Source of the DNA: Pseudomonadota bacterium
GTDB lineage: Bacteria > Desulfobacterota > Desulfobacteria > Desulfobacterales > RPRI01
NCBI GenBank assembly: GCA_018901125.1
Contig: JAHIFE010000091.1
Span: 1-47,689, forward strand
Direction of reading: 5' to 3'
Length of the DNA: 47,689 nt
Shown: positions 7,773-44,826 of the stretch, in pieces
How positions within the stretch are numbered: the first letter of the stretch is position 1
Layout of the letters: the number at the start of each line of letters is the position of its first letter
The notes under the pieces: model-generated
What the model was told of the DNA's origin: nothing
What the model saw: only the letters and a program-made list of their open reading frames with translations
Databases searched by the model: none
Position numbers and translations under genes: made by a program

Positions 7773-10130
7773 ATGACCAAACGTATCGCAGAATTTATTG
7801 TAAAACATCGCTTGCTCGTGCTGCTTGCCTTTATCGCATTCACACTTTTTTTTGCATATGAGGCAAGCAAGGTTCCTTTCAGGACAAATTTTCCTGATTT
7901 AATTCCCAAGCATGCTTACACAGATTTAGCCAAAAAATTTGAAGGCTTCGGCGGTTCCAACCGGGTAACCATTACTCTGGCTGTAAAGGAAGGAGATATC
8001 TTCAATACCCCTACTTTGGCTAAAATTATAGATATTTCAAACACACTGCAGTTTATGCCCGGAGTTGACCGGAACAAGGTTTATTCTATCGGGGTAAGCA
8101 AGATTAAAAACTTTAAAGTTACCACCGAAGGTCTGGAATTCCCTTCTTTGATGTATCCTGATCCGCCAAAAACCCGTGAAGAGATTGAACAGCTTAAACA
8201 GAATATATTTCGGAATAATCTTTATTACGGTCGTTTTGTTTCCATAGATACCAAGGCCGCCCTTATAAGCGGAGAATTTTTTGTAAGAGATCTTAATTAC
8301 AAAGCAACCTACAAAGCACTGGAAGAAATCCGTACAAAAAATACGGATAAAAATACCACGGTTTATATTGAAGGAGATACATATCTTTACGGTGTAATCA
8401 GTCATTATTTAAATCAGACCATCCTGATTTTTGCTCTTACTCTGGTAGGAATGATTATTGCCGCTTTCTGGTTTACCCGTATGGCCCGCCTGGTTTTTGT
8501 GCCTCTAATCTCCATGTTGCTTTGTGGGATATGGGGTCTCGGAGGAATCGGCCTGTTGGGCTTTAATATAGATCCCCTTGTGCTTGTGATTCCGCTTTTA
8601 ATAAGCGCCCGTGCATTAAGCCACTCCATACAGTTCGGCTGGCGGGTTCAGGAAGAATATGTAATTCACGGCAATATAAAGTCTGCCTGTGAGAAGACAA
8701 TCTCAAGTTTGTTGTATCCAGGCCTGGCAGGTATCATAACCGATGGGATAGGAATATTGCTGATTGCAATTATCCCGGTGCCGCTTATGTTCAAGATAGG
8801 CTTATCTTTTTTTATGTGGGCATTGACGGTTATCTTTGTGGTTTTGATTTTCAATCCTGTTATATATCTTTTCATACCTGCTCTTGCTGTAAAAAAGGTG
8901 GACATGTGGCAAAAAATGCAGGAGAAACGCTGGCTGGACCGCGTATTCAGCCAGCAAGTATTTAAAATGGGCAAGGGCAGGAATGCGTGGGCAATTGTGG
9001 GTTTAGGCATAGCTTTGGCCGTTGCGGCCGGTCTTATCAGTTTAAATGCCAAAGTAGGTGATATTCAGCCAGGCTCTCCCCTGCTGCAGGAAACATCCAG
9101 ATATAACCAGGATGTTATGAAAATTAATTCCTTTTTCCCCGGCTTGATAGATCCTCTTATGATAGTTGTCGATACAAAAAATCCGGATGGAATAAGTCAG
9201 CCGGAAGTAATGAAAGCCATGATCGATTTTCAGTCCTATCTGATGACCCGGCCGGAAGTAATGGGAACCGTGTCCATAGTTGACCTTGTAAAAAATCTAA
9301 ACATGAAGCTTTATGAAAATAACCCTAAATACTATGTGTTGCCTAATACTTCCCAGGGAATATATTCCAATCTTTTCTTGCTCCAGGGCGGTGGTGCTGA
9401 ACCCGGGGATTTTGACCAGTATTACAATGATGATCTTTCTGCTACCAATGTAGTGGCTTTCCTCAAGGATCACACGGCCAATACAATTGAAGAAGTTCTT
9501 TCCAGCTGCAAGCAGTATTTGTCACAAATGAAAATCAAAGGATATGAATTCAAACTTGCCATGGGACGTGTGGGATTAGTAGCTGCAACCAATGAATCAG
9601 TTGAATTGCATCAGTTCATGATAAGCGTGCTGGCCTTCGGCAGCACTTTTCTTTTTTGCTCTCTTTTTTTCCAATCATGGATGGCCGGCCTTATTTTAAT
9701 ATTGCCTCTGGGACTTGCCAACCTGTTTACACTGGCATACATGAGTCTTGCCTCGGTCGGACTAAGCTTGCAGACTTTACCTGTTTCAACTATCGCAGTC
9801 GGGGTAGGCGTGGATTATGGAATTTATCTGTTAAGCCGTATCAAGGAAGAATTTGAAATTCTGGGCGACATGGAAGCAGCTATACAGAGAGCTATTTCCA
9901 CAAGCGGCCAGGCAGTCACGGTTACCGGATTGATCATGGTTCTTGGCGTAGGTTTCTGGAATTTTTCAACCATCAAATTTCAATCCGATATGGGGCTTTT
10001 ACTCAGCATCGTAACATTTTTACATATTTTAGGAACTCTGTTTATACTGCCGGCATTAGTAAGAATATTTAAACCCGGATTTATTTTAAAATCTTATTCG
10101 ATAAAAGGAGGTGATCAGAATTTAAAGTGA
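7773..10130 (+). CDS. MMPL / HAE3-family RND transporter (second copy)
   Basis: A 785-residue polytopic membrane protein of the same family as the protein at 3979, but clearly divergent. TM1 lies at about 12-30, a membrane bundle at about 210-370, TM7 at about 405-425 and the last bundle at about 625-770. The helix-4 type motif STIAVGVGVDYGIYLLSRIKEEF lies near residue 672-694. The ribosome site AAGGAG lies upstream of the ATG. The gene is 79 bases after the YCF48 gene and 44 before the DUF1302 gene, in one apparent operon. It probably moves a hydrophobic compound between inner membrane and periplasmic carriers. Confidence 0.88.
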   Translation: MTKRIAEFIVKHRLLVLLAFIAFTLFFAYEASKVPFRTNFPDLIPKHAYTDLAKKFEGFGGSNRVTITLAVKEGDIFNTPTLAKIIDISNTLQFMPGVDRNKVYSIGVSKIKNFKVTTEGLEFPSLMYPDPPKTREEIEQLKQNIFRNNLYYGRFVSIDTKAALISGEFFVRDLNYKATYKALEEIRTKNTDKNTTVYIEGDTYLYGVISHYLNQTILIFALTLVGMIIAAFWFTRMARLVFVPLISMLLCGIWGLGGIGLLGFNIDPLVLVIPLLISARALSHSIQFGWRVQEEYVIHGNIKSACEKTISSLLYPGLAGIITDGIGILLIAIIPVPLMFKIGLSFFMWALTVIFVVLIFNPVIYLFIPALAVKKVDMWQKMQEKRWLDRVFSQQVFKMGKGRNAWAIVGLGIALAVAAGLISLNAKVGDIQPGSPLLQETSRYNQDVMKINSFFPGLIDPLMIVVDTKNPDGISQPEVMKAMIDFQSYLMTRPEVMGTVSIVDLVKNLNMKLYENNPKYYVLPNTSQGIYSNLFLLQGGGAEPGDFDQYYNDDLSATNVVAFLKDHTANTIEEVLSSCKQYLSQMKIKGYEFKLAMGRVGLVAATNESVELHQFMISVLAFGSTFLFCSLFFQSWMAGLILILPLGLANLFTLAYMSLASVGLSLQTLPVSTIAVGVGVDYGIYLLSRIKEEFEILGDMEAAIQRAISTSGQAVTVTGLIMVLGVGFWNFSTIKFQSDMGLLLSIVTFLHILGTLFILPALVRIFKPGFILKSYSIKGGDQNLK

Positions 10131-17213: not shown

Positions 17214-18884
17214 TCACCTATTAAGCAGTTCTTTCCTTTTGAGTGATAAACCGATTTTTTTCATTTTACTTCTAAGCGTACTCGGATTAAGTCCCATGAG
17301 TTCAGAGGCGCCTCCCGGGCCGGTGACTTTTCCTCTGGTTATCTTCAGCACTTTATTAATATGTGAAGCCAAAATATCATCAAGTTTTAAGGATTCATTT
17401 TCATTTTTTTGGGAGTATAATTTACTGCGTTCCGATTCCGGTAAGATAATCTTTATAATTTCTTTCATGTGCATCGAAAGTTTGTCTTCTATTGAAGGTT
17501 TGTAATTTTGATCTGCCTGTTGCATAGGCTCGGATTCCGTATTCTGAAAAAGTACATTTTCAAAAGATATCGGGTCCGAAATATTTTTGCCCCGATTCTG
17601 AATTAAGGTTCTTTCCACAAAGTTTTCCAATTCACGCACATTTCCGGGCCAATGATATTTCTTGAGTTTCTCAATAGATTCGCTTGCAATAACTGGTGCG
17701 GCAGGAATATTTCTTTCAATAGATTTTTGCTTCATAAAGTAGTCAACAAGTTCAGCAATATCCTCTATTCTTTCCCTTAGAGGGGGTATGTTTATAGGAA
17801 ATACATTCAGCCTGAACCAAAGATCTTCTCTGAACTGCTTCGATAAAACCATTTTTTCAAGATTTCTGTGAGTACAGGCAATAATACGTATATCTATAGA
17901 TATTGGTTCCGTTCCGCCGACACGCTCAATTTCCTGGTTTTGGATTACACGCAAAAGCCTTACCTGCGCTTCCTGCGGCAGTTCTCCGATTTCGTCAAGA
18001 AGTATGGTTCCTTTGTGAGCCCTTTCGAACCTTCCGCGTTTTTGGAATAATGCTCCTGTAAAAGCCCCTTTCTCATGTCCGAAAAGCTCACTGTCAATCA
18101 GCGTATCCGGTATAGCGCCGCAATTCACTTTAATGAAAGGCCCGTTTCTCCGTGGTGATGAATAATGGATGGCATTGGCAATAACTTCTTTTCCTGATCC
18201 GGTTTCACCCAGTAAAAGCACAGGGCTGTTTAAAGGAGCCACCTGCCTTACCATATCGAAAACTTTCTTTAGCCCCTTCCTCCTGCCGATAATTTCATTT
18301 CCGGAAATACGAAGCAACTCGTTATGAAGATACCGGTTGTCATCAGCAAGCATTTCTTTAAGTTTGAGGACATCCTGATGTTTTAAAGCGTTTGACATTG
18401 CTATAGCAAACGGGTCGTGTAACAGCGATAATAAATTGGCATGTGCCCTTGTATATTGATCCAATCCATTCGAATAAACTACCAGAGCAAACAGTTTTGA
18501 ATCATTTATTTTAAGTCGCATAGTCAATGTCGACATTTCAGGCATCTCAAACACTTGAGCTATTAATTTGCTTACCGGAAATGAATCAGGTTGGTTGATA
18601 ATTCCAACATCCGTTAATCCCATCCATTGATGCTCTAAAACCGCCTGCATTTCCTGTGGCAAAGAAATCTTACGGGCAACTTTTTTTAGTTTATTGTGAC
18701 TAACCTGAGCCAGTGTTTCTATGGCAGGCATACCCTGCTCACCCAGCACAAGATTCATACCTGTTAATGGCATAAAATTTTCCAGATACTCAAAAGCATT
18801 CCATAAGGAAGTCTCGATATCAAGACTTCCGCAAATACGTAAAGTTGCCTGACGGAAAAAATCATTTTCATCCATTATCTTCAT
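17214..18884 (-). CDS. sigma-54-dependent Fis-family transcriptional activator
   Basis: A 556-residue activator in three parts. Residues 1-165 form a GAF-like sensing region. The AAA+ domain at about 195-430 has Walker A GETGSGKE (226-233), the sigma-54 contact loop GAFTGA (273-278) and Walker [11 protein letters not shown]-terminal Fis-type helix-turn-helix follows ([23 protein letters not shown], about 525-547). All key motifs are intact, so it should activate RNA polymerase-sigma-54. There is no receiver domain, so it probably senses a small ligand directly. It is divergent from the operon starting at 19179, where a candidate -24/-12 promoter is present. Confidence 0.92.
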
Positions 18885-19046: not shown

Positions 19047-19063
19047 TTGGCATGAATTGAGCA
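19047..19063 (+). promoter_or_regulatory. candidate sigma-54 (-24/-12) promoter
   Basis: TTGGCATGAATTGAGCA has GG and GC exactly ten bases apart and matches the sigma-54 consensus at most -24 positions, with weaker agreement in the -12 TTGC part. It lies about 115 bases upstream of the OYE gene at 19179, next to the divergent sigma-54 activator gene. The 294-base gap 18885-19178 is otherwise AT-rich with several runs of alternating A/T and no open frame that I trust. Confidence 0.6.
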
Positions 19064-19178: not shown

Positions 19179-21125
19179 ATGAACATGGACAATAAATACT
19201 CTGTATTATTTGAAAGAACCTACATCGGCAATCTTGGTATCAAAAACCGGTTGGTTATGGCGCCGATAGGTACAAATCTGGGCAGACCGGACGGGGGCTT
19301 TTCTACCAGAGAAATGGATTATTTCGAAGAGCGCGCCAAGGGTGGTACAGGCATGTTGATTGTCGGCTTTCAGGTTATTACAAATAAAACGGATCCTTTC
19401 TTAAGATACCTGACAACCACGGATACTGATGAGCAGACACAAAAATGGGCACTACTTGCAGATAGAGTTAAAGCACATGGTACTGCTGTTTGCTTACAGT
19501 TATCAGCAGGCCTTGGCAGAAACGCACCTCCGGTAAATAATGAACCATTGGTATCCGCATCTTGTAATCCGTCATTTTGGTGTCCTGATCTAATGACCAG
19601 GGAATTAACTGCTGAAGAAATTAAAGATATAGTTAAATGTTTTGGCAGAGCAGCATTAAGAGCCAAGATAGCAGGATGTGATGCTGTGGAAATTCATGCA
19701 CATATAGGATATTTACTTGATCAGTTTATGACACCGCTCTGGAACAGGCGAAAGGATAAGTATGGGGGAAGTTTTGAAAACAGAATGAGATTTCCTTCTG
19801 AAGTATTGGAAGAGATAAGAAAGAATGTAGGTCCGGATTTCCCGGTACTGTTCAGGATGGCAATTGATCACAAACTTGAAGGTGGCAGAACAATTAAGGA
19901 AGGGCTGGAAATCATTGAGTACCTGGATAAAGCCGGTATAGATGCTTTTGATATTGATGCAGGCTGTTATGAAGCCCACAATTGGTGTTTCCCTACACCA
20001 TACATGGGTGATGCATGTTTGGCTGATTATGCGGCAGAAGCAAAGAAAGCCACAAGTAAACCTGTCCTGAATGCGGGAAATTACACTCCTGAAACCGCTG
20101 CAGAAGCAGTAAAGCAAGGCAAAACCGATTTTATAATGATAGGACGCGGATTACTGGCTGAACCTGAATGGGGCAATAAATTACTTTATGGAAAAAGGGA
20201 CGAGCTTCGTCCATGTATCCGTTGTAATGAATATTGCCTGGTAAAACCCTTAAGCGGACGTTTAACATCCTGTTCAATAAACGCAGCCTGCGGCTCTGAA
20301 AAAGAATATCAAATTACCCAAACTGATAATCCAAAGAAGGTCGCCGTGATTGGTGGCGGACCCGGTGGAATGGAAGCAGCAAGAGTTGCAGCGCTAAAAG
20401 GCCATAAGGTAAATCTCTACGAAAAATATCATTACCTGGGCGGCCAGCTTGTAGCAGCATCCGAACCTTCATTCAAAAGCACGCTGAAGGCATATCTGGA
20501 CTATTTGATTTTGCAGATGAAAAAGATAGACGTTGTTGTGCACTTGAACACGGAGATAAGCGCTGATTCTCCCGAACTCGAAGGTGCAGATACTATCATA
20601 GTAGCTGTTGGAGCCAAACCATTGACACCAAATATAAAAGGCATCGATTCTCCAAAAGCCATGACTATCATAGATGCACATCTTGGAAATAAACAGTTTA
20701 TGGGGAAAAATGTTGTAATAGCCGGTGGAGGTTCCACCGGGTGCGAGTGTGCCATAGATTTGGCAATGAAAGGCAATAATGTAACTATTATTGAAATGCA
20801 GCCTGAAATTGCTCCAAATACTTTTTTGGCCGGCAAGATTTGTATAAATGAAGCATGCATAAATTATAATATCAATATACTGACAAATCACAGCGTTTCG
20901 GAAATATCTGCAACAGGTGTAAAGGTAGTTAATCATGAAGGAAAAATAAACGAGATAGAAGCTGATATCGTAATCCTTGCTTTTGGAATGAAACCTGAGA
21001 GCAAGTTATCCAAAAGTATTTGTGATAAATATATCACAGCTATACCCATAGGAGATTGTGTAAGTATAGGACTAATAGGTGATGCTGTCAGAAGGGGGTT
21101 TTTTGCGGGATGGGGGATACAATAG
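19179..21125 (+). CDS. NADH:flavin oxidoreductase, 2,4-dienoyl-CoA reductase / BaiCD-BaiH-like (OYE family)
   Basis: A 648-residue three-cofactor flavoprotein. Residues 1-330 form an OYE-type FMN barrel (RLVMAPIGTN, MTPLWNRRKDKYGGS, DFIMIGRGLLAEP). A 4Fe-4S motif follows (C-x2-C-x3-C-x11-C within CIRCNEYC...TSC), then FAD/NAD(P) Rossmann parts (VAVIGGGPGGMEAA, VVIAGGGSTGCECA). Such enzymes reduce C=C bonds conjugated to a carbonyl (FadH, BaiCD, BaiH). The active-site segment is unusual: the common HGAHGY reads H173-A-H-I-G-Y178, and the FMN-side QLxHxGR reads QLSAGLGR. It starts an operon with the corrinoid and MttB genes and has AAAAGGGG upstream of the ATG. Confidence 0.9.
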   Translation: MNMDNKYSVLFERTYIGNLGIKNRLVMAPIGTNLGRPDGGFSTREMDYFEERAKGGTGMLIVGFQVITNKTDPFLRYLTTTDTDEQTQKWALLADRVKAHGTAVCLQLSAGLGRNAPPVNNEPLVSASCNPSFWCPDLMTRELTAEEIKDIVKCFGRAALRAKIAGCDAVEIHAHIGYLLDQFMTPLWNRRKDKYGGSFENRMRFPSEVLEEIRKNVGPDFPVLFRMAIDHKLEGGRTIKEGLEIIEYLDKAGIDAFDIDAGCYEAHNWCFPTPYMGDACLADYAAEAKKATSKPVLNAGNYTPETAAEAVKQGKTDFIMIGRGLLAEPEWGNKLLYGKRDELRPCIRCNEYCLVKPLSGRLTSCSINAACGSEKEYQITQTDNPKKVAVIGGGPGGMEAARVAALKGHKVNLYEKYHYLGGQLVAASEPSFKSTLKAYLDYLILQMKKIDVVVHLNTEISADSPELEGADTIIVAVGAKPLTPNIKGIDSPKAMTIIDAHLGNKQFMGKNVVIAGGGSTGCECAIDLAMKGNNVTIIEMQPEIAPNTFLAGKICINEACINYNINILTNHSVSEISATGVKVVNHEGKINEIEADIVILAFGMKPESKLSKSICDKYITAIPIGDCVSIGLIGDAVRRGFFAGWGIQ

Positions 21126-21178
21126 CATTTACTTGTTTTGCAGAATACTTACTATAATTGAAAAAGGAGGCAATCTGA

Positions 21179-21823
21179 ATGACTGATGCTGATATTATTG
21201 CAATGATAACTGAGCTGGTAATTTCTCTGGACGAAGAAAAAGCTATAACTGCGGTACAAAATGCTCTGGACGAGGGCTATGATCCGTTGGAAATCCTTCA
21301 AAAGGGCGTGCTTGCAGGACTCAGAGTGATTGGTGATAAGTTCGGTAGTGGAGAGTACTTCCTGCCGGAACTTATGATGGGTGCTGATCTCAGTGAGGCT
21401 TGCACAAATAAAATCATGGCAAGAATTCCCGAACAAGCTAATGCCTCACGCGGAGTATTTTTGCTTGGTGCTGTTCAGGGAGACCTTCATGACATCGGCA
21501 AGAGCCTGGTACTGAGGCAAATAAGCCTCGCCGGATATAAAGTTTATGACCTGGGTATCAATGTACCCAGTATGACTTTTATTGACAAGGCTATAGAACT
21601 TAATGCGGATATTATTGGGCTATCTGCTTTCCTTGATGCAACTCGCCCCTACTACTCCGAAGTGATCAACTACCTGCGCGATATGGGGTTGCGAAACAAG
21701 TATAAGGTCATTATCGGCGGAGTAGCTTCCTCTGCGGAATTATCGGAATCAATAGGTGCCGACGGCTGGGCGCCTGACGCCCCGTCAGCAGTCAGGCTCT
21801 GTGATAAACTCATGGGACATTAA
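21179..21823 (+). CDS. corrinoid (B12-binding) methyl-carrier protein, MtbC/MttC-like
   Basis: A 214-residue protein with the two-domain layout of methyltransferase corrinoid proteins: an N-terminal helical cap (1-90), then the cobalamin domain. The base-off ligand motif GDLHDIGKSL supplies the cobalt-ligating His104. It is followed by the usual downstream elements GLSAFLDAT and VIIGGVASSAE. It carries a methyl or related group between a substrate methyltransferase and an acceptor methyltransferase. The AAGGAGG site is well placed. It sits 97 bases before the MttB-family gene, its expected partner. No MtbA/MtaA-like acceptor methyltransferase or RamA-type reactivator is in the window. Confidence 0.92.
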   Translation: MTDADIIAMITELVISLDEEKAITAVQNALDEGYDPLEILQKGVLAGLRVIGDKFGSGEYFLPELMMGADLSEACTNKIMARIPEQANASRGVFLLGAVQGDLHDIGKSLVLRQISLAGYKVYDLGINVPSMTFIDKAIELNADIIGLSAFLDATRPYYSEVINYLRDMGLRNKYKVIIGGVASSAELSESIGADGWAPDAPSAVRLCDKLMGH

Positions 21824-21920
21824 ATATCGAATATGCATCAGATATTATCAATTAAGGCATACAAGGTGCTTTTTTCATTTATATAAATATTTTGAAAAAC
21901 TTAATTTCAGGAGATATAAT

Positions 21921-23279
21921 ATGCTATCTATGATGGATATTCAGAAGAGAGCTGAAACCGGCCCGGTGATGAAAAGCAAAGATTTCGACCTTGCGTTTGC
22001 ACGCAAGATACGTGAATTGATTCCAAAGTACAATATCAAGTATGACGCCGAGCAGCTAATCGTGGATGATGCGACAGCCGACGAAATATTTCAGGCTGGT
22101 ATCGAACTGCTGGCTGGGGTCGGCCTTTATAATACGGATACCCAAAGGGTTATTCAGTTCAGCATTGAAGAGCTTCAGCAGGTTGCTGCGACAGCACGAA
22201 CCGGTCCGGATATAGTGATGTTTGGCCGGGGTAAGGATGAGGTCTGCTATCAGCACCGGACCGGCAAAGATAAAAGCTCACCGGTGCTGGCTGCAGGTGC
22301 GCACGGTGGTGGAACAGTGCCCATCCGCCAGGAGTGGTTTTCTCAATTTGTGCAGTCTTTTGTACAGGAGGAATCCAATAAAGCTCTGGCGATAACCGGC
22401 GGTGTTCCCTCAGTTGACGGAATTCCGATCAAGGTGGGTACTCCTTCTGAGGTTTACTGTGCCCTTTGGGAAAACAAGGCCATGCTGGAAGTACTGCGCA
22501 GGGTCGGACGGCCGGGCATGCATCTTGGTCTCCATTCATCCGTTACGAGTATCGGCGGTTTTCTCGCATTGGTCCACGAAGGATTTCGGGGACGCCATAA
22601 CATTCAGCTTTCTGCCCATGTCATGCCTGAGCTCAAGGTTGACTGGTCGAGGCTTACCCTGGCATTGATTGTGAAAGAGTGGGACTTTGTTCCCTGGGTC
22701 AGCGGCATGTCGGTCGAAGGGGCACTGTGCCGGGGACCGGAGGAAACGGCTGTGGGCATGATTGCAAGTATGCTGGGCCAGCTCGCTTACAGCAATGCAA
22801 TTCCGGTTCAAATCTGGAATAATACTGTCAGGGGTGAATGGTCAAGGTCGCAAACGCTATGGGCAAACGGAGCTGCAACACGCGCCGCAGAACGCAATGT
22901 CCGTCTTCCCATTGGTGGTATGGTAACTGCCGAGGAGCAGTTCAGGGGTACTGAAGCATCTCTTTATTGGGAGGCGGCTGCATCTGTTTTATATACGGCT
23001 TGTGGATTTGCATATTGCTGGAGTACTGGCTGGACAGGCCTGGAGGCTCGCTTTGTTGGTGAAATACTCTCAGCAACAGCAGGGATGGATGAGCAGGAAG
23101 CTAATAAACTCGCTAAGGCTATTTATGCAAGATGGGTGGTTGAAAAGGAACATGCCACAGCGCCTAAAGACTTTCCCGAGCTATATGACTTAGAGACTGT
23201 AAAACCAACTCAAGATTGGTTAAGCACTTATAACAGAGTAAAAGATGAGCTTGCGCGAATGGGTGTTCCTTACAAGTGA
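21921..23279 (+). CDS. MttB (trimethylamine methyltransferase) family protein, non-pyrrolysine type
   Basis: A 452-residue MttB-superfamily protein. Recognisable parts are ADEIFQAGIELLAGVGLYNTDT near the start, LAAGAHGGGTVP, GVPSVDGIPIKVGTPSE, and VSGMSVEGALCRGPEETAVGM in the catalytic barrel. The frame runs without an in-frame TAG, so it lacks the pyrrolysine codon of archaeal and bacterial MttB. Non-Pyl members that have been characterised demethylate quaternary amines such as glycine betaine, proline betaine or carnitine, but most are unassigned. The ATG at 21921 follows CAGGAGATATAAT; the open frame upstream to 21756 overlaps the corrinoid gene and is rejected. Sitting between an OYE and a Mo enzyme is not typical for amine demethylation. 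Confidence 0.88.
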   Translation: MLSMMDIQKRAETGPVMKSKDFDLAFARKIRELIPKYNIKYDAEQLIVDDATADEIFQAGIELLAGVGLYNTDTQRVIQFSIEELQQVAATARTGPDIVMFGRGKDEVCYQHRTGKDKSSPVLAAGAHGGGTVPIRQEWFSQFVQSFVQEESNKALAITGGVPSVDGIPIKVGTPSEVYCALWENKAMLEVLRRVGRPGMHLGLHSSVTSIGGFLALVHEGFRGRHNIQLSAHVMPELKVDWSRLTLALIVKEWDFVPWVSGMSVEGALCRGPEETAVGMIASMLGQLAYSNAIPVQIWNNTVRGEWSRSQTLWANGAATRAAERNVRLPIGGMVTAEEQFRGTEASLYWEAAASVLYTACGFAYCWSTGWTGLEARFVGEILSATAGMDEQEANKLAKAIYARWVVEKEHATAPKDFPELYDLETVKPTQDWLSTYNRVKDELARMGVPYK

Positions 23280-23326
23280 TTATTAGTCTTAAGTGTACTA
23301 TAAAGACAAGACTTAAGGAGAATTAT

Positions 23327-25384
23327 ATGAGCGATAAAAAGGAAGTAAAGACCTTATGCGGAATGTGTCTTTGGGCATGTGGTATTATAGTGAGTCTTGA
23401 AGACGAAAAAATCGTCAAAATCAAAGGAGATCCTGATCACCCCTGGAATAAAGGCAGGCTTTGCCCAAAATCTGCAAAAATTATTGATCATTTCTATTCT
23501 CCGCAGCGTGTAAAATATCCTATGAAAAAGGTTGGAGGAAACTTTCAGAGAATTTCGTGGGATGATGCCCTGGAAACCATGGCTTCAGGGTTGAATAAAA
23601 TCAAGGACAGCTATGGTCCCGAGGCATGGACGATGATAGTCGGAATGGCGGTACAGGGTCAGGGGTTTAATACAATGCATTTTCTGCAAAGGTTTTGTGA
23701 TGCTTTTGGCAGTCCTAATTTTATTACACCTGAGACATTTTGCTTCTTAAGCGGTATCACAGCCAACATGCTGACAATGGGAAAATTCCCTTATGCCGAT
23801 CAGAAAAACAGCAAATGTATAGTTTTATGGGGGCATAATCCGTCCGCTTCCAATTTTATTGCTGCTGAAAAAATAAAATATGCAACAGACAATGGAGCAA
23901 AACTTGTTGTTATTGATCCCCGTAAAATCGCTCTTGCAAAAAATGCCGATATCTTTGCCCAGATAAGACCGGGAACTGACTGTGCCTTAGCCCTTGCTCT
24001 GATTAAAATTATTATTCAAGAAGAACTTTATGATAAGGAATTTGTAAAAAACTGGACTTCCGGTTTTGAACAGTTGCAGGAACACATAAAAACTTACGAC
24101 ATAAAAGATGCTTCAAGAATAACATGGATTCCGTTAAAAACAATTGAAAGCATCGCTCATACTTATGCTTCAATAAAACCAGCTTCTATACTACAGGGCA
24201 CAAACTCACTCGATCAGCACCCGACCGGATTTCAAAATAACAGGGCGCTTGCAATTCTTGAGGCTCTAACGGGTAATATAGATGTGCCGGGAGGACATCT
24301 TATTTCAGGCACGTTTCCAAATTTTGCCCAGTTAAGACTGCCGGATCTTGTAAAGGGTAAAAATGTCGGTTATGAAAAATACCCCCTCTTTGCCGGTGAT
24401 TGGACAGGCCAGGGTATGCTGTTGCCTGATATGATGTTGACAGGCAAGCCTCATCCCATGAAAGGCCTGGCGGTTATTGCTTCCAATCCTGTTTTGACCT
24501 GGCCTAATTCAAATAAACTGAAAAAAGCATTGGAGTGCCTTGATTTTCTGGCGGTGATGACCACAGTTCCGAATGAAACATCGGAAATGGCGGATTTGGT
24601 TTTGCCTGGAGCAACCTTTCTCGAAAGAACGGAAGTTTGGGATGGCCCCCTTTTGGGTTCAATGGGTTATATGAGTATTAGAAACAAAGTGACCGAATAT
24701 CATGAAAGCTGGTCAGAAATTAAATTCTGGCTTAATCTGGCAAGACATATGGGTTATGAAAAATATTTTCCGTGGCAGGATGATGATGAAGTATTTAAAC
24801 ATGTTTTCAAAGATACTGGTATTAATATTGACGAATATCTTGGAAAAACAAATATGATTCCATTCGGCGGAGAATTAAAATACAAAACATATGAAGAAAC
24901 CGGATTTCCTACACCTACCGGGAAGATCGAGCTTTTTTCTACGATAATGCAAAGCGTAGGTTTTGATCCTATGCCGACTTTTACGGAACCTCCTGAATCG
25001 CCAATAAACGATCCGGAAACAGCAAAAGAATATCCTGTAATACTTACAACCGGCTCAAGGGTTCTGCAATATACTCACTCATCTTATCGTGAAACATATT
25101 TAAACGATAAAAAAGCTCCTGAACCATATGCTGAAATTCATCCTGCTACTGCCGGATATTATGGTATTGGTGATGAAGAAGTTATTAATGTCGCAACCAA
25201 AAGGGGTGCAATACAAATCAGGGCCAGACTGACGGAAGACATTTTGCCTCATGTTATCAACATACCACATGCCTGGGCTAACAGTAATGTAAACCTTCTG
25301 ACGGATGAAAAATCAGTAGATCCGGTAACCGGATATCCAGCGCTTAAGGCTTTGTTATGCAAGATCAGTCCGGTTAAAAAATAA
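23327..25384 (+). CDS. molybdopterin-dependent oxidoreductase, DMSO-reductase superfamily, cytoplasmic
   Basis: A 685-residue catalytic subunit. It begins with a 4Fe-4S motif (C11-x2-C14-x3-C18-x27-C46, CGMCLWAC...CPKS) and continues with the bis-MGD-binding alpha/beta domains (WGHNPSASN, VVIDPRKIALA, TDCALALALIK). It ends with the molydopterin dinucleotide-binding barrel (ILTTGSRVLQYTHSSYRE). Cys139 in TFCFLSGITAN is at the place of the Mo-ligating residue. There is no Tat or other signal peptide and no adjacent electron-transfer or membrane subunit, so it is probably soluble. In this superfamily such lone cytoplasmic enzymes include hydratases and transhydroxylases as well as reductases, so the reaction cannot be named. 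The ATG at 23327 follows TAAGGAG. Last gene of the sigma-54-linked operon. Confidence 0.9.
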   Translation: MSDKKEVKTLCGMCLWACGIIVSLEDEKIVKIKGDPDHPWNKGRLCPKSAKIIDHFYSPQRVKYPMKKVGGNFQRISWDDALETMASGLNKIKDSYGPEAWTMIVGMAVQGQGFNTMHFLQRFCDAFGSPNFITPETFCFLSGITANMLTMGKFPYADQKNSKCIVLWGHNPSASNFIAAEKIKYATDNGAKLVVIDPRKIALAKNADIFAQIRPGTDCALALALIKIIIQEELYDKEFVKNWTSGFEQLQEHIKTYDIKDASRITWIPLKTIESIAHTYASIKPASILQGTNSLDQHPTGFQNNRALAILEALTGNIDVPGGHLISGTFPNFAQLRLPDLVKGKNVGYEKYPLFAGDWTGQGMLLPDMMLTGKPHPMKGLAVIASNPVLTWPNSNKLKKALECLDFLAVMTTVPNETSEMADLVLPGATFLERTEVWDGPLLGSMGYMSIRNKVTEYHESWSEIKFWLNLARHMGYEKYFPWQDDDEVFKHVFKDTGINIDEYLGKTNMIPFGGELKYKTYEETGFPTPTGKIELFSTIMQSVGFDPMPTFTEPPESPINDPETAKEYPVILTTGSRVLQYTHSSYRETYLNDKKAPEPYAEIHPATAGYYGIGDEEVINVATKRGAIQIRARLTEDILPHVINIPHAWANSNVNLLTDEKSVDPVTGYPALKALLCKISPVKK

Positions 25385-25385
25385 C

Positions 25386-25504
25386 GACTTCGTAAAAACT
25401 CCCTCTGCTGCGTTGCGATTCATCTTTCGTCATTGCAGCGTACGAATAAGTATGCTTCATTCCTCATGATTCGCGCGCCTTGCATATGAAGCTTTTACGA
25501 AGTC
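25386..25504. repeat. 119-base palindromic element with perfect 12-base ends (element A)
   Basis: The ends GACTTCGTAAAA (25386-25397) and TTTTACGAAGTC (25493-25504) are perfect inverted copies. Inside are CTGCGTTG near the left, a central imperfect palindrome GCGTACGAATAAGTATGC, and GCCTTGC near the right. There is no open frame. It looks like a MITE or REP-type element, and its central fold may also stop transcription between the Mo gene and the SnoaL-like gene. Confidence 0.75.
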
Positions 25505-25531: not shown

Positions 25532-25948
25532 ATGAATGACGTATTAATAGAAAAAGATCTGATACATGAAACAATAGCCAATTATTGTTTTTATTTTGAT
25601 GGTGCAGAGTTTGATAAATGGGTTGGCCTGTTCACGGATGATGGTATTTTTGATTGCGGTGCTTTGGGACTATATGATGGCAAAGAAGCTATTAAAATTT
25701 TTACCAAAAACATTCCGCTTACAAACGGTCTGCCTATGATGAAACATTGTATTATGAATGAAGTTATAAAAGTTTCCGGAAACAGCGCAACAGCAAATAG
25801 TTATCTTCTGATGTTTAAAACAAAAACCGATGGGAGTTTAGTTATCAGCATGACCGGGCGTTATGAGGATGAACTGGTTAGACATAATGACCGCTGGTTA
25901 TTTAAAAAGCGTAAGTTGCATATAGAAACAATGGGAGATATGTCTTAG
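25532..25948 (+). CDS. SnoaL-like protein (nuclear transport factor 2 fold), possible dehydratase or isomerase
   Basis: A 138-residue SnoaL_4-type protein: IANYCFYFDGAEFDKWVGLFTDDG at the start, a pocket-lining MKHCIMNE segment, and WLFKKRKLHIETMGD at the end. Tyr18, Asp23 and His72 fall at spacings like the Tyr30, Asp35 and His83 of bile-acid 7-alpha-dehydratase BaiE, as I remember them. The second acidic residue of BaiE (Asp106) has no clear counterpart, so the activity may differ. The ribosome site AAAGGAG is good. It stands between a palindromic element and the Mo hydroxylase gene. Confidence 0.75.
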   Translation: MNDVLIEKDLIHETIANYCFYFDGAEFDKWVGLFTDDGIFDCGALGLYDGKEAIKIFTKNIPLTNGLPMMKHCIMNEVIKVSGNSATANSYLLMFKTKTDGSLVISMTGRYEDELVRHNDRWLFKKRKLHIETMGDMS

Positions 25949-26043: not shown

Positions 26044-28350
26044 ATGACAGAAAAAAAATATTCGGTCATAGGAAAGCGTTTGCCGAGGGTGGATGGAATA
26101 ATCAAGGCAAAGGGAGAGGCACAGTATACAGCAGATATTTCTCTGCCCGGCTTGCTATACGGAAAAATCCTGCGCAGCCCTTATCCCCATGCCAGGATCG
26201 TAAGTATTGATACAAGCAAGGCGGAAAAGGTCAGCGGTGTGAAGGCGATCATTACCGGGCGCGATATTCCGGATATTAAATATGGGTTTATGATGGCTGC
26301 CATACCTGGTAGCGGCGATCAGTATTTTTTGGCTAAGGATAAGGTAAATTATATCGGCGATGAAGTGGCGGCTGTGGCGGCAATAACGGAAGATGTAGCC
26401 TGGGAAGCTTTGGGCCTGATAGAAGCTGAATATGAAGAGCTTCCGGCTTTGCTTTCGGTAGAAGAAGCAATGCGTGAGGGAGCGCCTTTGATTCATGAAG
26501 CATTTGCAGGCAATATTTCTGCAAAAGCTAAGCTCGAATTCGGTGATGTTGAGAAGGGATTCAGTGAATCCGATTACATACGGGAAGACAGGTTTTTAAT
26601 GCCTGCCGTTCAGCATTGTTCACTTGAACCACATGTTTCCCTTGCAAGCTGCGATTCTTCCGGAAATATTACACTATGGATATCTACCCAGGCTCCTTTT
26701 ATGCTAAAGGGCCCTATTGCTTTACTTTTGAATGTACCGGCAGGCAATGTAAGAATAATAAAACCTCATATGGGAGGAGGGTTCGGCGGCAAAATGGAAG
26801 TATTTTCTCTTGATTTGTGCTGTGCAATGCTCGCCAGGAAAACAGGAAACCCGGTTTTAATTTCCTATACGAGAGAAGAAGAATTCTCATCCACGAGAAG
26901 ACGTCACCCTCTTGAAGTTACCCTCAAGATCGGGGTCAAAAAGGATGGAAGCATTATAAGCAGGACTTCAAAGACAGTACTTGACGGCGGAGCGTACGCA
27001 AGCCTGGGTCATGGTGCAGCTCTTTTGGCTAATTTATGGATGACCCTTCCATACAAACAACCGAATATCCGGTTTGAATCCTGCCGGGTTTTGACAAACA
27101 ATATCCCCTGCGGAGCAATGAGAGGTTTTGTTTCTCCGCAAATCAGGCTTGCTTCGGAAGTTCAGCTGGACGCTGTAGCTGAGGTGCTATGTATTGATCC
27201 GCTTGAGTTGCGTATCAAAAACGGCCTGAAAGCAGGAGATGTAACTGTAAATGGACTTAAGATATCCAGCGGCAGTGTTGTGGATTGCCTTAAAACAGCA
27301 GCACAGGCATCAAAATGGCGGCAAAAAATAAAGAGGCTGCCTCCTCTTCATGGGATAGGCGTTGCATGCAGCAGCTTTGAGTGTGGCCCCAGTTTTCCCA
27401 TGCTGGGTCCTTTTACCGCATCTTCTACTATCTTTATTAAAGCCAATACTGACGGCACGGTCATGATAATTTCCGGTGCTTCCGATATCGGACAAGGGTC
27501 GGATACGGTGCTTTCTCAAATTGTAGCGGAAGAACTGGGCATAGAAATGGAAGACGCCAAAATCACCATGCCCGATACTGATTTAACGCCTCCTGATTCG
27601 TTTAGTTCCGGTAGCCGGGTTACTTTCCATACGGGAAATGCGGCCAGACGAGCAGCTGCTGATCTGAAACAGAAGCTCTTACAGGCAGTTGCCGGAAAAC
27701 TGGAAGCCAGAGTTGAAGACCTTGAAGCAAGAAAGCGGAGGATCTACGTAAAAGGTTCGCCTGATAAAGGTATCTTATTTGCTGAGGCGGTAGCAATTTG
27801 TCAGATGGCCCAGGGTGGTATGGCGCTTATGGGTTCCGGATCCTATAGCCCTGAGATGGGACATGTTGATATGGCAACCGGATACGGCAATTATTCACCT
27901 GCTTATAGCTTTGTAGCAGTAATTGCAGAAGTAGAAGTTGATCAGGAGACGGGTCAGGTGAAAGTGGAAAAGCTGACTGTCTGCGATGATTGCGGTCGTG
28001 TAATTAATCCGCTGGGAATAACAGGTCAGATTGAGGGATCGGCAGCGATGGGGCTCGGATACACCTTTTGCGAAGAACTGCTGGTCAGCGACGGCAAAAC
28101 ATTAAATCCATCCTTTCTTGACTACAAAATACCTACGGCATTGGAAATGACTGAGATGGAAAATATCTTTATCGAATCCAATGATCCCGGCGGTCCTTTC
28201 GGCGCAAAGGAGAGCGGGGAAGGGTTGCTGGCGCCCATAGCTCCGGCCATCTTTAATGCCATTTATGATGCTACAGGGATAAGGTTCAAAGAACTTCCCT
28301 TGACTCCGGAAAAGGTTCTCCGGCAGCTTCAGGAGATGAGAGCTTCATGA
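26044..28350 (+). CDS. xanthine dehydrogenase family molybdopterin-binding (large) subunit
   Basis: A 768-residue protein. The a/b hammerhead domain is at about 18-125 (GEAQYTADISLPGLLYGKILRSPYPHARI). The Mo-binding domain follows with HMGGGFGGKMEVF (about 241-253) and AMRGFVSPQ, and near the C-terminus FGAKESGEGL, whose Glu726 is at the position of the catalytic base. This family hydroxylates or dehydroxylates aromatic, N-heterocyclic and aldehyde carbons using water. The 2Fe-2S and FAD subunits normally encoded beside it are absent: neighbours are a SnoaL-like gene and an SDR. A GGAG site precedes the ATG. Its 3' end has a decayed second copy at 30253. Confidence 0.92.
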   Translation: MTEKKYSVIGKRLPRVDGIIKAKGEAQYTADISLPGLLYGKILRSPYPHARIVSIDTSKAEKVSGVKAIITGRDIPDIKYGFMMAAIPGSGDQYFLAKDKVNYIGDEVAAVAAITEDVAWEALGLIEAEYEELPALLSVEEAMREGAPLIHEAFAGNISAKAKLEFGDVEKGFSESDYIREDRFLMPAVQHCSLEPHVSLASCDSSGNITLWISTQAPFMLKGPIALLLNVPAGNVRIIKPHMGGGFGGKMEVFSLDLCCAMLARKTGNPVLISYTREEEFSSTRRRHPLEVTLKIGVKKDGSIISRTSKTVLDGGAYASLGHGAALLANLWMTLPYKQPNIRFESCRVLTNNIPCGAMRGFVSPQIRLASEVQLDAVAEVLCIDPLELRIKNGLKAGDVTVNGLKISSGSVVDCLKTAAQASKWRQKIKRLPPLHGIGVACSSFECGPSFPMLGPFTASSTIFIKANTDGTVMIISGASDIGQGSDTVLSQIVAEELGIEMEDAKITMPDTDLTPPDSFSSGSRVTFHTGNAARRAAADLKQKLLQAVAGKLEARVEDLEARKRRIYVKGSPDKGILFAEAVAICQMAQGGMALMGSGSYSPEMGHVDMATGYGNYSPAYSFVAVIAEVEVDQETGQVKVEKLTVCDDCGRVINPLGITGQIEGSAAMGLGYTFCEELLVSDGKTLNPSFLDYKIPTALEMTEMENIFIESNDPGGPFGAKESGEGLLAPIAPAIFNAIYDATGIRFKELPLTPEKVLRQLQEMRAS

Positions 28351-28401: not shown

Positions 28402-29181
28402 ATGGAAAAAGAGATCAACAAGAATAAATCTCTTGAATTCGAAGAACACGTCGCCTTCATAACCGGTGGTGGTCGGGGTTTTGGCAAAGCCTTCGGACAG
28501 GCGCTTATGAAGCGCGGCGCACGTATTGTCCTGGCGGACATTGATTCTGCAGCAGCGGAAGAGGCAGCCGCCGAACTGCGTGCCAGCGGCGGCGAGGCCC
28601 TCCCGGTCAAGTGCGATGTGGCCGATGAGATACAGGTTGCCGCAGCGATAGAGCTTGCTGTTTCAGAGTATGGGGGTATCGATATCCTTATCAATAACGC
28701 CGGATTGCACTCCGCCGCCTACGCCGAGCCGATGAGCAGCTCTGGAATAAACAAGTTGCGCAGACTGTTCGATGTAAATGTGATGGGTGTAATCATCTGC
28801 TCGCTGGCAGCACGCCAGGCTATGGCAGGTCGCGTGGACTCCGTGATCATCAATATTTCATCTTCAGCCGCCTATGACTATCCGACCGCCTATGGCGTAT
28901 CGAAGCTTGCGGTTCGGGGCCTTACTATCACTATGGCGCGCGACTTCAAAGCCTACGGCATCCGCGTGAATGCCATCGCTCCCGGTCTGATTTACACCGA
29001 AACAATCAGGAAAGAATTGCCGGAGTGGGTACTTGATACCGTTAAGAAGCAGCAGATACTGGATCGTGAAGGCGATGTTAAGGATATTGTTGAAGCAATG
29101 CTATATCTGGCATCAGCACGATCGGCCTTTATTACTGGCGAGACCTTGAGGGTGAGCGGGGGCTTTACCTTAGCAATTTGA
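28402..29181 (+). CDS. short-chain dehydrogenase/reductase (SDR)
   Basis: A 259-residue classical SDR with TGGGRGFGKA, the acidic stop VLADIDS (Asp after strand 2, favouring NAD), NNAG, a Ser-rich ISSS stretch, and catalytic Tyr164 and Lys168 (YGVSK). The end carries TGETLRVSGGF. The Ser-to-Tyr spacing is slightly short compared with the other SDRs here. The coding sequence is visibly richer in G and C than its neighbours (runs such as GCGCGGCGC), suggesting a separate origin. The ribosome site is weak. It follows the Mo subunit by 51 bases. Confidence 0.88.
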   Translation: MEKEINKNKSLEFEEHVAFITGGGRGFGKAFGQALMKRGARIVLADIDSAAAEEAAAELRASGGEALPVKCDVADEIQVAAAIELAVSEYGGIDILINNAGLHSAAYAEPMSSSGINKLRRLFDVNVMGVIICSLAARQAMAGRVDSVIINISSSAAYDYPTAYGVSKLAVRGLTITMARDFKAYGIRVNAIAPGLIYTETIRKELPEWVLDTVKKQQILDREGDVKDIVEAMLYLASARSAFITGETLRVSGGFTLAI

Positions 29182-29327: not shown

Positions 29328-30182
29328 ATGACTAAAAAAGAAACTGCCTTCTTTGTGGTGACCGGTGCAGCAAGCGGAATGGGAGCTGCATCTGCGCTTC
29401 GTTTGGGAAGGAGGGGTAAAGTATTACTGGTTGATATTGATGCTAAGAGACTCGATCTGATGACTGATAAACTTGTATCCGGTGGTATTAAAGCAGAGAA
29501 GTATATTTGTGACCTCATGGATGAGCAATCCGTATGCTTGCTGGCTGAGACTGCCAAATCCATGGGACGAGTGATCGGATTAGTGAACGCTGCCGGAATT
29601 TCTCCTTCAATGACTTCGGATTGGAGAAAGGTACTTTCTGTTGACCTTGTCGGTACTGCTCTCATGCTCAGAGAGTTTTTACCCTTGATGGTTCCTGGAG
29701 CCGCTGCTGTGTGCATTGCATCGATAGCGGCCCGTGCTTTTATAAGTAGTCCTGAAACAGATAATGTTCTGGATAATCCTCTTGATCATGAGTTTTTAAA
29801 CCGTATAGAATCTTACCTTTCAATATCTCTTCCTCCATCATCAGAGATAGATCCTAAAAGCGGCGCTGCTTATCTTCTTGCAAAATGTGGCGTTGTGCGT
29901 TTGTGTGAGAGACTTGCCCCTGTCTGGGCACAACACGGAGCCCGTATTGTTTCCATTTCTCCAGGCAATATTGATACACCGATGGGACGGCTTGAATATG
30001 ATAGGTTGGAATATATGCGGAAATCGGTTGAAATGACACCGATACGCCGTTTGGGCAAACCTGAAGAAATTGCAGCAGCAGTTGATTTTCTTTGCAGTGA
30101 AGATGCCTCCTATATAACCGGATGCGATTTATTGATTGACGGTGGCTTCACTGCCGCAATAACTCATGCTGATAGTCATTAG
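29328..30182 (+). CDS. SDR resembling 3-alpha-hydroxysteroid dehydrogenase/carbonyl reductase
   Basis: A 284-residue SDR with VTGAASGMGAA (cofactor), LLVDID (Asp, NAD preference) and NAAG. Catalytic Ser132 lies in IASIAAR, and Tyr182/Lys186 in AAYLLAK. Between Ser132 and Tyr182 there are 49 residues instead of the usual 12. An insertion at this place is the hallmark of the Comamonas testosteroni 3-alpha-HSDH/CR type, in which I recall Ser114, Tyr155 and Lys159. The segments VLSVDLVGTALMLREFLPLM and ASYITGCDLLIDGG also resemble that enzyme. A GAGG site precedes the ATG. Steroid activity is plausible but not proven, since the same layout occurs in unassigned SDRs. Confidence 0.82.
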   Translation: MTKKETAFFVVTGAASGMGAASALRLGRRGKVLLVDIDAKRLDLMTDKLVSGGIKAEKYICDLMDEQSVCLLAETAKSMGRVIGLVNAAGISPSMTSDWRKVLSVDLVGTALMLREFLPLMVPGAAAVCIASIAARAFISSPETDNVLDNPLDHEFLNRIESYLSISLPPSSEIDPKSGAAYLLAKCGVVRLCERLAPVWAQHGARIVSISPGNIDTPMGRLEYDRLEYMRKSVEMTPIRRLGKPEEIAAAVDFLCSEDASYITGCDLLIDGGFTAAITHADSH

Positions 30183-36386: not shown

Positions 36387-36416
36387 ATTATGCATCAAGA
36401 TCGACATATTTGTCAA
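36387..36416 (-). promoter_or_regulatory. candidate sigma-70-type promoter of the composite regulator, with overlapping operator-like palindrome
   Basis: On the reverse strand TTGACA (36416-36411) and CATAAT (36392-36387) are 18 bases apart, about 55-60 bases before the regulator ATG. The 12-base palindrome GACATATTTGTC (36403-36414) overlaps the -35 box. This would suit autoregulation and could also affect the divergent operon at 36470. There is no direct evidence of binding. Confidence 0.5.
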
Positions 36417-36469
36417 TCGCAGGTTTTTCGGTCTGGCATCAGCAAGATAAAATAAAGGGGGAAATAAAC

Positions 36470-38200
36470 ATGTCTAAACAAGAAGATTTTGATGTTGCCA
36501 TTATCGGCGGCGGTGTATCGGGATTGGTTTGCGGTTGTTATCTTCAGAAGGCGGGATTGAAGGTGGCAATATTTGAAGCCAGGGAGGAATCGGGAGGAGG
36601 ACGGTGCGCTCACGAAGCTATGCGCCCCGGTCATGTAGTTCAGTCATGTATATGGGGAGATGTAGAACCTATAATGATGTCTCAATTGGATCTGGAATTG
36701 GACAGATATGGATACCAGGATACACATATGATGGCGGACTGGGGCTGGGGCTATATTTTTGAAGATAATACATGCCTTGTAAATAACTGCTGGGATCCGA
36801 AAAAAACGGCTGATAAAGTCAGAAGATTTTCGGAAAAAGATGCCCAAAAGATTTTGGATATGGTTGCCTATTTCTCCGAACCTTATGATGATAAAATTAC
36901 CAAGATGTGCAAATTCACCGAGTTGTTTTTCACTGATTTCTGGACCTGGGAAAATTTCGACATTCTTCTTGATCTGGTTGCTCCTGTTTTTCCGTTTAAA
37001 GATCCGTATGAGATAACCGATTTAAATGCATTTGAAATGCTGGATGCGATGTATGAAAGCGAACAGTTTAAAATGTATGCCGCAAGCATTGCCATAGGAG
37101 GAGCCATATATCCTCACTATACAGGAGGACAGAGTATGCTGGCCGCATTGTTGCCGATGGGATTATATTATTCTCATCCGAAAAACGGCTGTCATTCCGT
37201 AGCCCATGTTTTTATACGTTGTTTCAGGGCTCTTGGCGGTAAGTTGTTTAACAGTTGCCCGGTAAAGAAAATTATTGTTGCAGGAGGAGAAGCCAAAGGA
37301 ATCGTATTAGATGATGATGCAGCTTTTCCGGGCAAAGAAATAACCGCAAAAAAGGTTGTAACCAATATCAATCCCCGTGTCACATTTTGCGATATGGTTG
37401 GTGAGGAGCATCTCGACAGAAAAGTAATCCAGAAACTCAAGACAAACTGGAAGTATGACGGAGTACTGGTCGAAATACATTTTGCATTAAAACACAGGCC
37501 TCGCTTTGAAGCGGAAAAAGATGACCCTGATATTATTCAATCACTGACCGGCATGATAGGACCGAATACCTTAGGAGAACTGATGCAGGGATGGGGAGAA
37601 AGAGTCGGCGGCAGAATTCCATCAGAAGGATTAACACCTCTTAGTTATGTTTATGCTCATATGGATGATCCGACACAAACCAGATCTGATAATTGCGTTA
37701 TAAATGTTTGTATAGAAGTACCTTTTGCAATTTATGAAAAGGGCGGGCCGGAGATCTGGGATGACAAAGACTTCAGAAAGTCTGTATTTGATACTCACAT
37801 CGGAACCATGGAAAAAGCCTGCCCTGGTTTTACAGATAGCATACTTGACTACTGGTTCACCACACCCCTTGATCTTTCAAGATTCAATCCACACTACACC
37901 AGGGGATGTATGAGCGGTGGAAGTACTGCTGCCAACCAGATGTTTTTTGCAAACAGGGCGGATATAGAGGGTTTTGAAAAAGGAGGAGTTGTAACTCCTA
38001 TTAAAAACCTTTACGGAGCAGGAAGCGTAGGGCCCTCATGGAGCAGCGGCGGAAACGGATATCGTGCGGCATGCCAGATAGCCGAAGAGCTTGGGATAAG
38101 AAATCAACCCTGGTGGGTTCACAGAGCTTTTGAATATATTCAGAAAAAATATATCGACAAGACTTATATCCCGTTAAAGAAAACGAGTATATTGGACTAG
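36470..38200 (+). CDS. phytoene-desaturase-like NAD(P)/FAD-dependent oxidoreductase
   Basis: A 576-residue flavoenzyme. The N-terminal FAD-binding motif is VAIIGGGVSGLVCGCYLQ followed by the ribose-binding Glu in VAIFEAREESGGG. The C-terminal FAD contact is LYGAGSVGPSWSSGGNGYRA. The centre is the usual mixed substrate domain. The family performs desaturation, isomerisation or amine/alcohol oxidation on hydrophobic substrates. The ATG at 36470 has AAAGGGGGA upstream; the earlier ATG at 36410 precedes it without a ribosome site. It is the first gene of an operon running to about 45618, and its product is 31 bases from a paralogue. Confidence 0.85.
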   Translation: MSKQEDFDVAIIGGGVSGLVCGCYLQKAGLKVAIFEAREESGGGRCAHEAMRPGHVVQSCIWGDVEPIMMSQLDLELDRYGYQDTHMMADWGWGYIFEDNTCLVNNCWDPKKTADKVRRFSEKDAQKILDMVAYFSEPYDDKITKMCKFTELFFTDFWTWENFDILLDLVAPVFPFKDPYEITDLNAFEMLDAMYESEQFKMYAASIAIGGAIYPHYTGGQSMLAALLPMGLYYSHPKNGCHSVAHVFIRCFRALGGKLFNSCPVKKIIVAGGEAKGIVLDDDAAFPGKEITAKKVVTNINPRVTFCDMVGEEHLDRKVIQKLKTNWKYDGVLVEIHFALKHRPRFEAEKDDPDIIQSLTGMIGPNTLGELMQGWGERVGGRIPSEGLTPLSYVYAHMDDPTQTRSDNCVINVCIEVPFAIYEKGGPEIWDDKDFRKSVFDTHIGTMEKACPGFTDSILDYWFTTPLDLSRFNPHYTRGCMSGGSTAANQMFFANRADIEGFEKGGVVTPIKNLYGAGSVGPSWSSGGNGYRAACQIAEELGIRNQPWWVHRAFEYIQKKYIDKTYIPLKKTSILD

Positions 38201-38231
38201 TAAATACAGACTATCGCAAGGAGAGATTAAA

Positions 38232-39839: not shown

Positions 39840-39853
39840 AAGGAGAAGAAGAT

Positions 39854-40795: not shown

Positions 40796-40827
40796 CCGGT
40801 TAGGAACTTGCTGAAAGGGGGTATAAA

Positions 40828-41580: not shown

Positions 41581-41590
41581 TAATTCGTAT

Positions 41591-41662
41591 TCACCCTCTC
41601 CTGTAACCTCTCCCCTTAAGGGATGAGAAATAATCCATCTCTTCCCTTGCGGGAGAGGGTGA
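41591..41662. repeat. 72-base inverted repeat between two SDR genes
   Basis: TCACCCTCTCC (41591-41601) is exactly inverted at GGAGAGGGTGA (41652-41662). The interior also has CTCCCCTTAAGGGATGAG-like self-pairing. It fits the common CCCTCTCC/GGAGAGGG class of dispersed bacterial palindromes. It sits within an operon, where it could reduce or stabilise downstream message. Confidence 0.7.
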
Positions 41663-41705
41663 GACGGAATGGGGCATAGACATTAAGAGAAGGAGTACTA
41701 ATACA

Positions 41706-42470: not shown

Positions 42471-42510
42471 TCAGCAGTATAAAAATTGCATTATTCTTAG
42501 GGGGTAATCA

Positions 42511-42822: not shown

Positions 42823-42854
42823 GCAATATAAAATAAATACTACAAGGAGAGAAA

Positions 42855-44813: not shown

Positions 44814-44826
44814 CATAGGGGGTATT

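Follow-up and report, generated by a model that had tools for sequence, protein, structure and literature searches.

The question raised by this locus is which methyl group, on which substrate, is moved by a corrinoid-dependent methyltransferase encoded among an old yellow enzyme (OYE) homologue and a molybdenum (Mo) enzyme. The genes lie on contig JAHIFE010000091.1 of the genome of a Desulfonema-like member of the Desulfobacterales (GCA_018901125.1, here G000), and the whole stretch analyzed, 47,689 nucleotides, is called the window. The methyltransferase belongs to the MtmB family, lacks pyrrolysine (Pyl), and falls in a clade whose genes mostly lie near genes for KstD-like (3-ketosteroid 1-dehydrogenase-like) flavoproteins. 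On this basis, we lean towards the view that, with its corrinoid partner, it provides the central methyl-transfer step of an island devoted to the catabolism of a 3-keto steroid or of a terpenoid resembling one, in which an angular methyl group would be transferred as by EmtAB of Denitratisoma and AbeAB of Phosphitispora TUW77. The four core genes are as follows.

19179–21125, + strand: OYE-family flavoenzyme (FMN/FAD/4Fe-4S) of the BaiCD/2,4-dienoyl-CoA-reductase type, 648 aa (PF00724 + PF07992)
21179–21823, + strand: corrinoid protein with a DLHDIG cobalt-binding motif, 214 aa (PF02607 + PF02310)
21921–23279, + strand: MtmB-family methyltransferase without pyrrolysine, 452 aa (PF05369, 1.7e-57)
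23327–25384, + strand: cytoplasmic Mo/W-bisPGD 4Fe-4S enzyme, 685 aa (PF00384/PF01568/PF04879)

A pyrrolysine-less member of the MtmB family

The original prediction, made from the letters of the window, had assigned the product of the third gene to the MttB family. This identity was rejected for METHYLTRANSFERASE, which gave no match to PF06253 (MttB family) and instead matched PF05369 (MtmB) over its full length (195.7 bits, 1.7e-57, profile positions 2–449 of 450). MtmB entries were its only sequence matches in the PDB, and its AlphaFold model (pLDDT 92.9) aligned with MtmB at a TM score of 0.89–0.90, compared to about 0.5 with MttB. No in-frame internal TAG, the mark of a Pyl-dependent methylamine methyltransferase gene, was present. 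In the alignment of the clade described below, the column of MtmB pyrrolysine-202 was Gly in 27 of 27 rows; the Glu229 column was Gly in 24 and Ser in 3, and the Glu259 column was Ser in all 27, both glutamates being presumably functional in MtmB. Invariant residues specific to the clade include Trp183, Glu184, Arg223, His233, Trp242, Trp259, Ser261, Cys270, Arg271, Tyr290, Glu324 and Trp367. The third protein is a full-length MtmB-family methyltransferase without pyrrolysine, paired with a corrinoid protein, as expected of an EmtA/AbeA-type enzyme.

Since the protein is MtmB-like and not MttB-like, the suggested inspection of its pocket for the quaternary-amine aromatic box of MttB does not apply. 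The result named as fatal to the original prediction, a close grouping of the protein with demethylases of betaine or carnitine, did not occur, because those demethylases belong to another family. PF06253 matches in G000 were confined to contig C15 (loci L001 and L002), one of them with an internal TAA.

A clade linked to KstD-like genes

Relatives of the methyltransferase were drawn from its own order, a genome collection and wider samples; the two phylum-centred searches gave largely one sample. A plasmid search for relatives returned none, and the D. oestradiolicum plasmid carried no MtmB gene. In a FastTree phylogeny of 71 MtmB-family proteins, the window protein was placed inside a clade with support 0.999, together with proteins of two congeners (90–93% identity) and others at about 37–51% identity from Chloroflexi, Desulfobacterales, Desulfatiglandales and foraminifera-associated metagenome-assembled genomes (MAGs).

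Of the 26 distinct clade genes, 21 (18 of 23 loci) had a gene for a KstD-like FAD_binding_2 flavoprotein no more than 10 kb away, whereas none of the 43 MtmB-family genes outside the clade did (Fisher p ~2e-13, uncorrected for relatedness). This p value makes the evidence look stronger than it is, because the rows are not independent, some genomes supplying five or six of them, and because the KstD reference sequences were taken from clade neighbourhoods; the difference in counts is nevertheless plain. Counted per genome, KstD-like neighbours were found in 9 of 11 clade genomes, the exceptions being G000 itself and G118. A looser KstD scan of the control loci gave a single weak partial match, and a relative at 50% identity (L189), left out of the tree and the counts, also had KstD-like neighbours. 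The link to 3-ketosteroid 1-dehydrogenation expected of an EmtA/AbeA-type enzyme is seen at the level of the clade; in the window itself, no such neighbour lies this close.

The strongest neighbouring flavoprotein (L079, 11320–13032), encoded 77 bases downstream of an MtmB-like gene, matched the 3-oxosteroid 1-dehydrogenase 7p18 at E 1.9e-153, and its catalytic tyrosines align with those of that enzyme. Tyrosines are numbered as in Rhodococcus KstD, checked against the printed alignment. The pattern YYYG, made up of the three catalytic tyrosines and the glycine, is conserved in most KstD neighbours. The Desulfonema type departs from it as VYYG, with VFYV in one congener; a further neighbour reads YYFG, and some others are truncated or are different flavoproteins. 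Clade neighbourhoods were strongly enriched in KstD, OYE and short-chain dehydrogenase (SDR) genes, and genes for methyl-tetrahydrofolate:corrinoid methyltransferase (MeTr) adjoin clade genes in Chloroflexi and Desulfobacterales. MttB neighbours numbered 0 in the clade versus 10 of 43 in the rest of the family.

Paralogous MtmB-like genes were also observed. In a Chloroflexi MAG, a set of three OYE genes is followed by three such paralogues in tandem, 82–85% identical to the first (L034, 9902–14095), and arrays of at least three non-KstD paralogues with corrinoid genes occur at L192 and L194 of one genome (G561). Outside the KstD clade, the Chloroflexi class sample yielded a distantly related MtmB-like gene (L198 of G697, 7960–9426) that forms a compact system with adjoining corrinoid, MeTr, RACo and OYE genes.

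The locus and its counterparts in congeners

As the original prediction described, the four core genes are closely spaced. Their open reading frames are intact, each with an ATG and a plausible ribosome-binding site, and are separated by 53, 97 and 47 bases, a spacing that suggests an operon. The gene run extends beyond the four to about 47.4 kb, with SnoaL_4, xanthine-dehydrogenase-family (XDH) and several SDR genes, a HIBADH-CMD fusion, two FAD oxidoreductases, a second OYE and a DUF1329 protein. The other features are listed below.

17214–18884, − strand: sigma-54-dependent activator, divergent from the four-gene run (PF00158, 7.9e-69)
25532–25948, + strand: SnoaL_4-fold protein adjoining the Mo enzyme (PF13577, 7.4e-24)
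26044–28350, + strand: XDH-family Mo subunit, 4-hydroxybenzoyl-CoA reductase alpha-like (1rm6, E 1.9e-166)
28402–29181 and 29328–30182, + strand: two SDRs (PF13561/PF00106)
36410–45618, + strand: continuation of the island with two FAD oxidoreductases, SDRs and a second OYE, syntenic in a congener (L073 orthologues 77–98% identical)

The proposal of a single sigma-54-linked operon held as far as the divergent activator is concerned, but a −24/−12 promoter was unsupported (22 such sites observed versus 35 expected; the best-placed, at 19047–19063, has 3 mismatches) and the run does not stop at the fourth gene.

In the congener G005, likely orthologues (72–98% identity) of most window genes between 17.2 and 45.6 kb lie in one region, in the order activator, KstD-like, OYE, MeTr, DUF1329, FAD, AveC-like, corrinoid, MtmB-like and XDH, with the Mo and SnoaL genes on the opposite side of the activator. 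The activator orthologue flanking this cluster is 92% identical. The corrinoid protein is 91% identical in the congeners and is encoded immediately upstream of the MtmB-like gene, which in the congener is directly followed by the XDH gene. The window version of the cluster is without the KstD and MeTr genes of the G005 version. In the second congener, the OYE, MeTr and DUF1329 genes lie on one contig and the corrinoid and MtmB-like genes on another. The four-gene order, proposed as something to seek in other genomes, was kept in neither congener carrying the MtmB-like gene, and a conserved four-gene operon was rejected. The adjacency of the Mo and SnoaL genes is common to the window and the congener (L074), and the G005 layout indicates that they are a separate pair travelling apart from the methyltransferase; the pairing of Mo enzyme with methyltransferase read into the original arrangement was not borne out.

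The OYE protein carries a Pyr_redox domain and a C-x2-C-x3-C-x11-C cluster motif. Its top NCBIfam match was BaiCD at 414 bits, short of the equivalog cut-off of 825, which leaves it outside BaiCD proper; its best PDB matches were NCR and 2,4-dienoyl-CoA reductase. In the corrinoid protein, DLHDIG is at residue 102. The Mo/W enzyme is of the FdhA/acetylene hydratase type, with acetylene hydratase 2e7z as its closest solved relative (E 5.8e-87); from this likeness, one might guess at a hydration role. Mo enzymes of the same type, 31–33% identical to that of the window, were observed at L135, L141, L142, L145 and L150 near MtmB-like, MttB-like or corrinoid genes of non-KstD MtmB clades. Between the Mo and SnoaL genes lies an inverted repeat (25386–25504; 23-nt arms, 73 nt apart), which was checked as a candidate genomic repeat; its exact pattern was found once in the genome.

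Methyl-transfer genes elsewhere in the genome

The acceptor methyltransferase and reactivator that the original prediction reported missing are indeed absent from the window cluster, but both are encoded in the genome, and the acceptor is also part of the congener's cluster. G000 carries a MeTr homologue in trans (73% identity), four RACo genes and acetyl-CoA synthase (ACS), all outside the window cluster. Elsewhere in the genome, KstD-like genes gave 7 matches, and paralogues of the sigma-54 activator adjoin KstD-like genes; at the same threshold, three congeners without the MtmB-like gene gave no KstD-like match. One congener record is named Desulfonema limicola, and on that ground the organism is assumed to reduce sulfate.

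Contigs C194, C229 and C21 of G000 (L212, L213 and L214) carry KstD-like paralogues near corrinoid or URO-D-like genes or near sigma-54 activators related to that of the window; by gene content these are possibly further corrinoid methyl-transfer clusters. At L124 (contig C84, 5034–11951), URO-D-like, corrinoid protein and MeTr genes stand close together with transporter genes nearby; this is a second corrinoid methyl-transfer system of the genome.

Proposed function and alternatives

The protein families, the corrinoid pairing, the loss of pyrrolysine, the KstD association of the clade and the MeTr, RACo and ACS genes of the genome can all be read from sequence. By analogy with bacterial estrogen–androgen interconversion, a methyl group is probably moved off (or onto) a steroid-ring carbon without oxygen, and the direction is probably demethylation to tetrahydrofolate (THF). 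In the mechanism we propose, KstD-like flavoproteins would dehydrogenate the ring to a cross-conjugated 3-keto-1,4-diene; with the corrinoid protein docked on the MtmB-like barrel, its cob(I)alamin would attack the angular methyl at a quaternary carbon (C10 in steroids); and the ring would depart as phenolate, so that aromatization would drive the methyl-removal step. The methyl would pass to THF via a MeTr-type enzyme, which we take AbeC to be in the Abe system, and on to oxidation by the Wood–Ljungdahl pathway, with the cobalt held reduced by RACo proteins and the OYE, SDR, Mo and XDH-type enzymes preparing or processing the ring. The KstD link of the clade fits the chemistry of EmtA and AbeABC: the dienone would be made, Co(I) would take the angular methyl and aromatization would pay for it. 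The substrate, the exact atom at which the bond would be broken, and the direction are inferred. Part of the methyl removal on an unsaturated ring first suggested for this locus is retained: corrinoid-dependent removal is favoured and C–C was among the bonds named, but the MttB identity of the enzyme gives way to an MtmB-like one.

Several points weigh against this view. The clade rows are related to each other, several coming from one genome; the KstD-like flavoproteins of the genus are without the first catalytic Tyr (V-Y-Y-G); no KstD-like gene lies within 10 kb of the MtmB-like gene in the window; and no gene in the window's genome reached an AcmB-like KstD at 1e-40. The substrates of FAD_binding_2 enzymes are, moreover, many.

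The same enzyme class may run in reverse, as an EmtABCD-like C10 methylation of a phenolic steroid from S-adenosylmethionine (SAM) or methyl-THF that would dearomatize the ring for degradation. The EMT reaction is reversible in extracts: those of Denitratisoma also transferred the methyl of 1-dehydrotestosterone, a substrate prepared with the KstD AcmB, to a protein acceptor, with formation of estradiol (PMC7448270). MeTr could likewise be donor rather than acceptor, and the neighbouring 4-hydroxybenzoyl-CoA-reductase-like gene is of a type acting on phenols. We nevertheless consider methylation improbable, as ACS and MeTr in the genome would fit a pathway in which the methyl is taken off and then oxidized, C10 methylation is described as endergonic without SAM (PMC7448270), and SAM-regeneration genes were not recognized among the annotated window genes.

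If an MtmB-like enzyme O-demethylated an ether or a methoxylated aromatic, this would agree with the best PDB matches of MeTr (the 4o0q/4o1e/4o1f group, 4o1e being titled an O-demethylation component) and with the URO-D-like, corrinoid and MeTr set elsewhere in the genome, a set familiar from O-demethylases. Such a reaction would, however, leave the KstD link unexplained, we know of no MtmB-fold O-demethylase, and we hold this activity to be quite improbable. MtqB of Methanococcoides, a non-Pyl MtmB homologue demonstrated by biochemistry (PMC13044021), offers another model, in which the window protein would demethylate quaternary amines or choline and would have steroid-type neighbours by chance. 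This is very improbable given the absence of MttB neighbours from the clade and its strong KstD/OYE/SDR enrichment.

Angular-methyl transfer would matter beyond this locus. In a 2026 tree of 1,061 MtmB proteins, most non-Pyl members had no function assigned (PMC13044021), and the tight clade–KstD link gives a concrete, testable substrate class. EmtAB/AbeAB-type corrinoid chemistry has itself become known only very recently. If the assignment is true, the ability to take an unactivated methyl off a ring without oxygen would extend to Desulfobacterota and Chloroflexota, beyond a few denitrifiers and one fermenter. This would be relevant to what becomes of steroid hormones and, as a speculation, to ring-A-aromatic steroids in sediments, on which a literature search gave nothing usable. 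A wider and doubtful extension is that the KstD-linked clade is a broad corrinoid family that acts on steroids and other polycyclic terpenoids and cuts C–CH3 bonds at their quaternary carbons, including methyls besides C19, by which sediment anaerobes would aromatize or strip rings without oxygen; Desulfonema-like organisms might then run a multi-copy programme, with KstD-like flavoproteins also beside corrinoid and URO-D-like methyltransferase genes.

Comparison with known systems

The MttB superfamily (MtgB, MtcB and others) shares corrinoid-partnered TIM barrels with the window protein but is another family, at a TM score of about 0.5 and with PF06253 unmatched. MtmB, the monomethylamine methyltransferase of methanogens (1l2q, 1nth, 1tv2), shares PF05369 and the fold, whereas identity is about 25%, pyrrolysine is missing from the window protein and pocket residues are replaced. 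MtqB, acting on tetramethylammonium and choline, is likewise a non-Pyl MtmB homologue, but is archaeal, with amine substrates and another gene context.

EmtAB(CD), likened here by description, has the same Pyl-less, MtmB-related catalyst with a corrinoid partner, and the 1,4-diene-3-keto steroid that Emt forms is the product of KstD (PMC7448270). It differs in its denitrifying host, its SAM methyl donor and the lack of any OYE or Mo genes in the description of emt. AbeABC, also likened by description, is a system of anaerobic estrogenesis 57% identical to EmtAB and reportedly removes the C19 methyl of testosterone by corrinoid chemistry for oxidation through the Wood–Ljungdahl pathway (PMC12507874). 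The congener's cluster holds corrinoid, MtmB-like and MeTr genes together; the window cluster itself is without MeTr.

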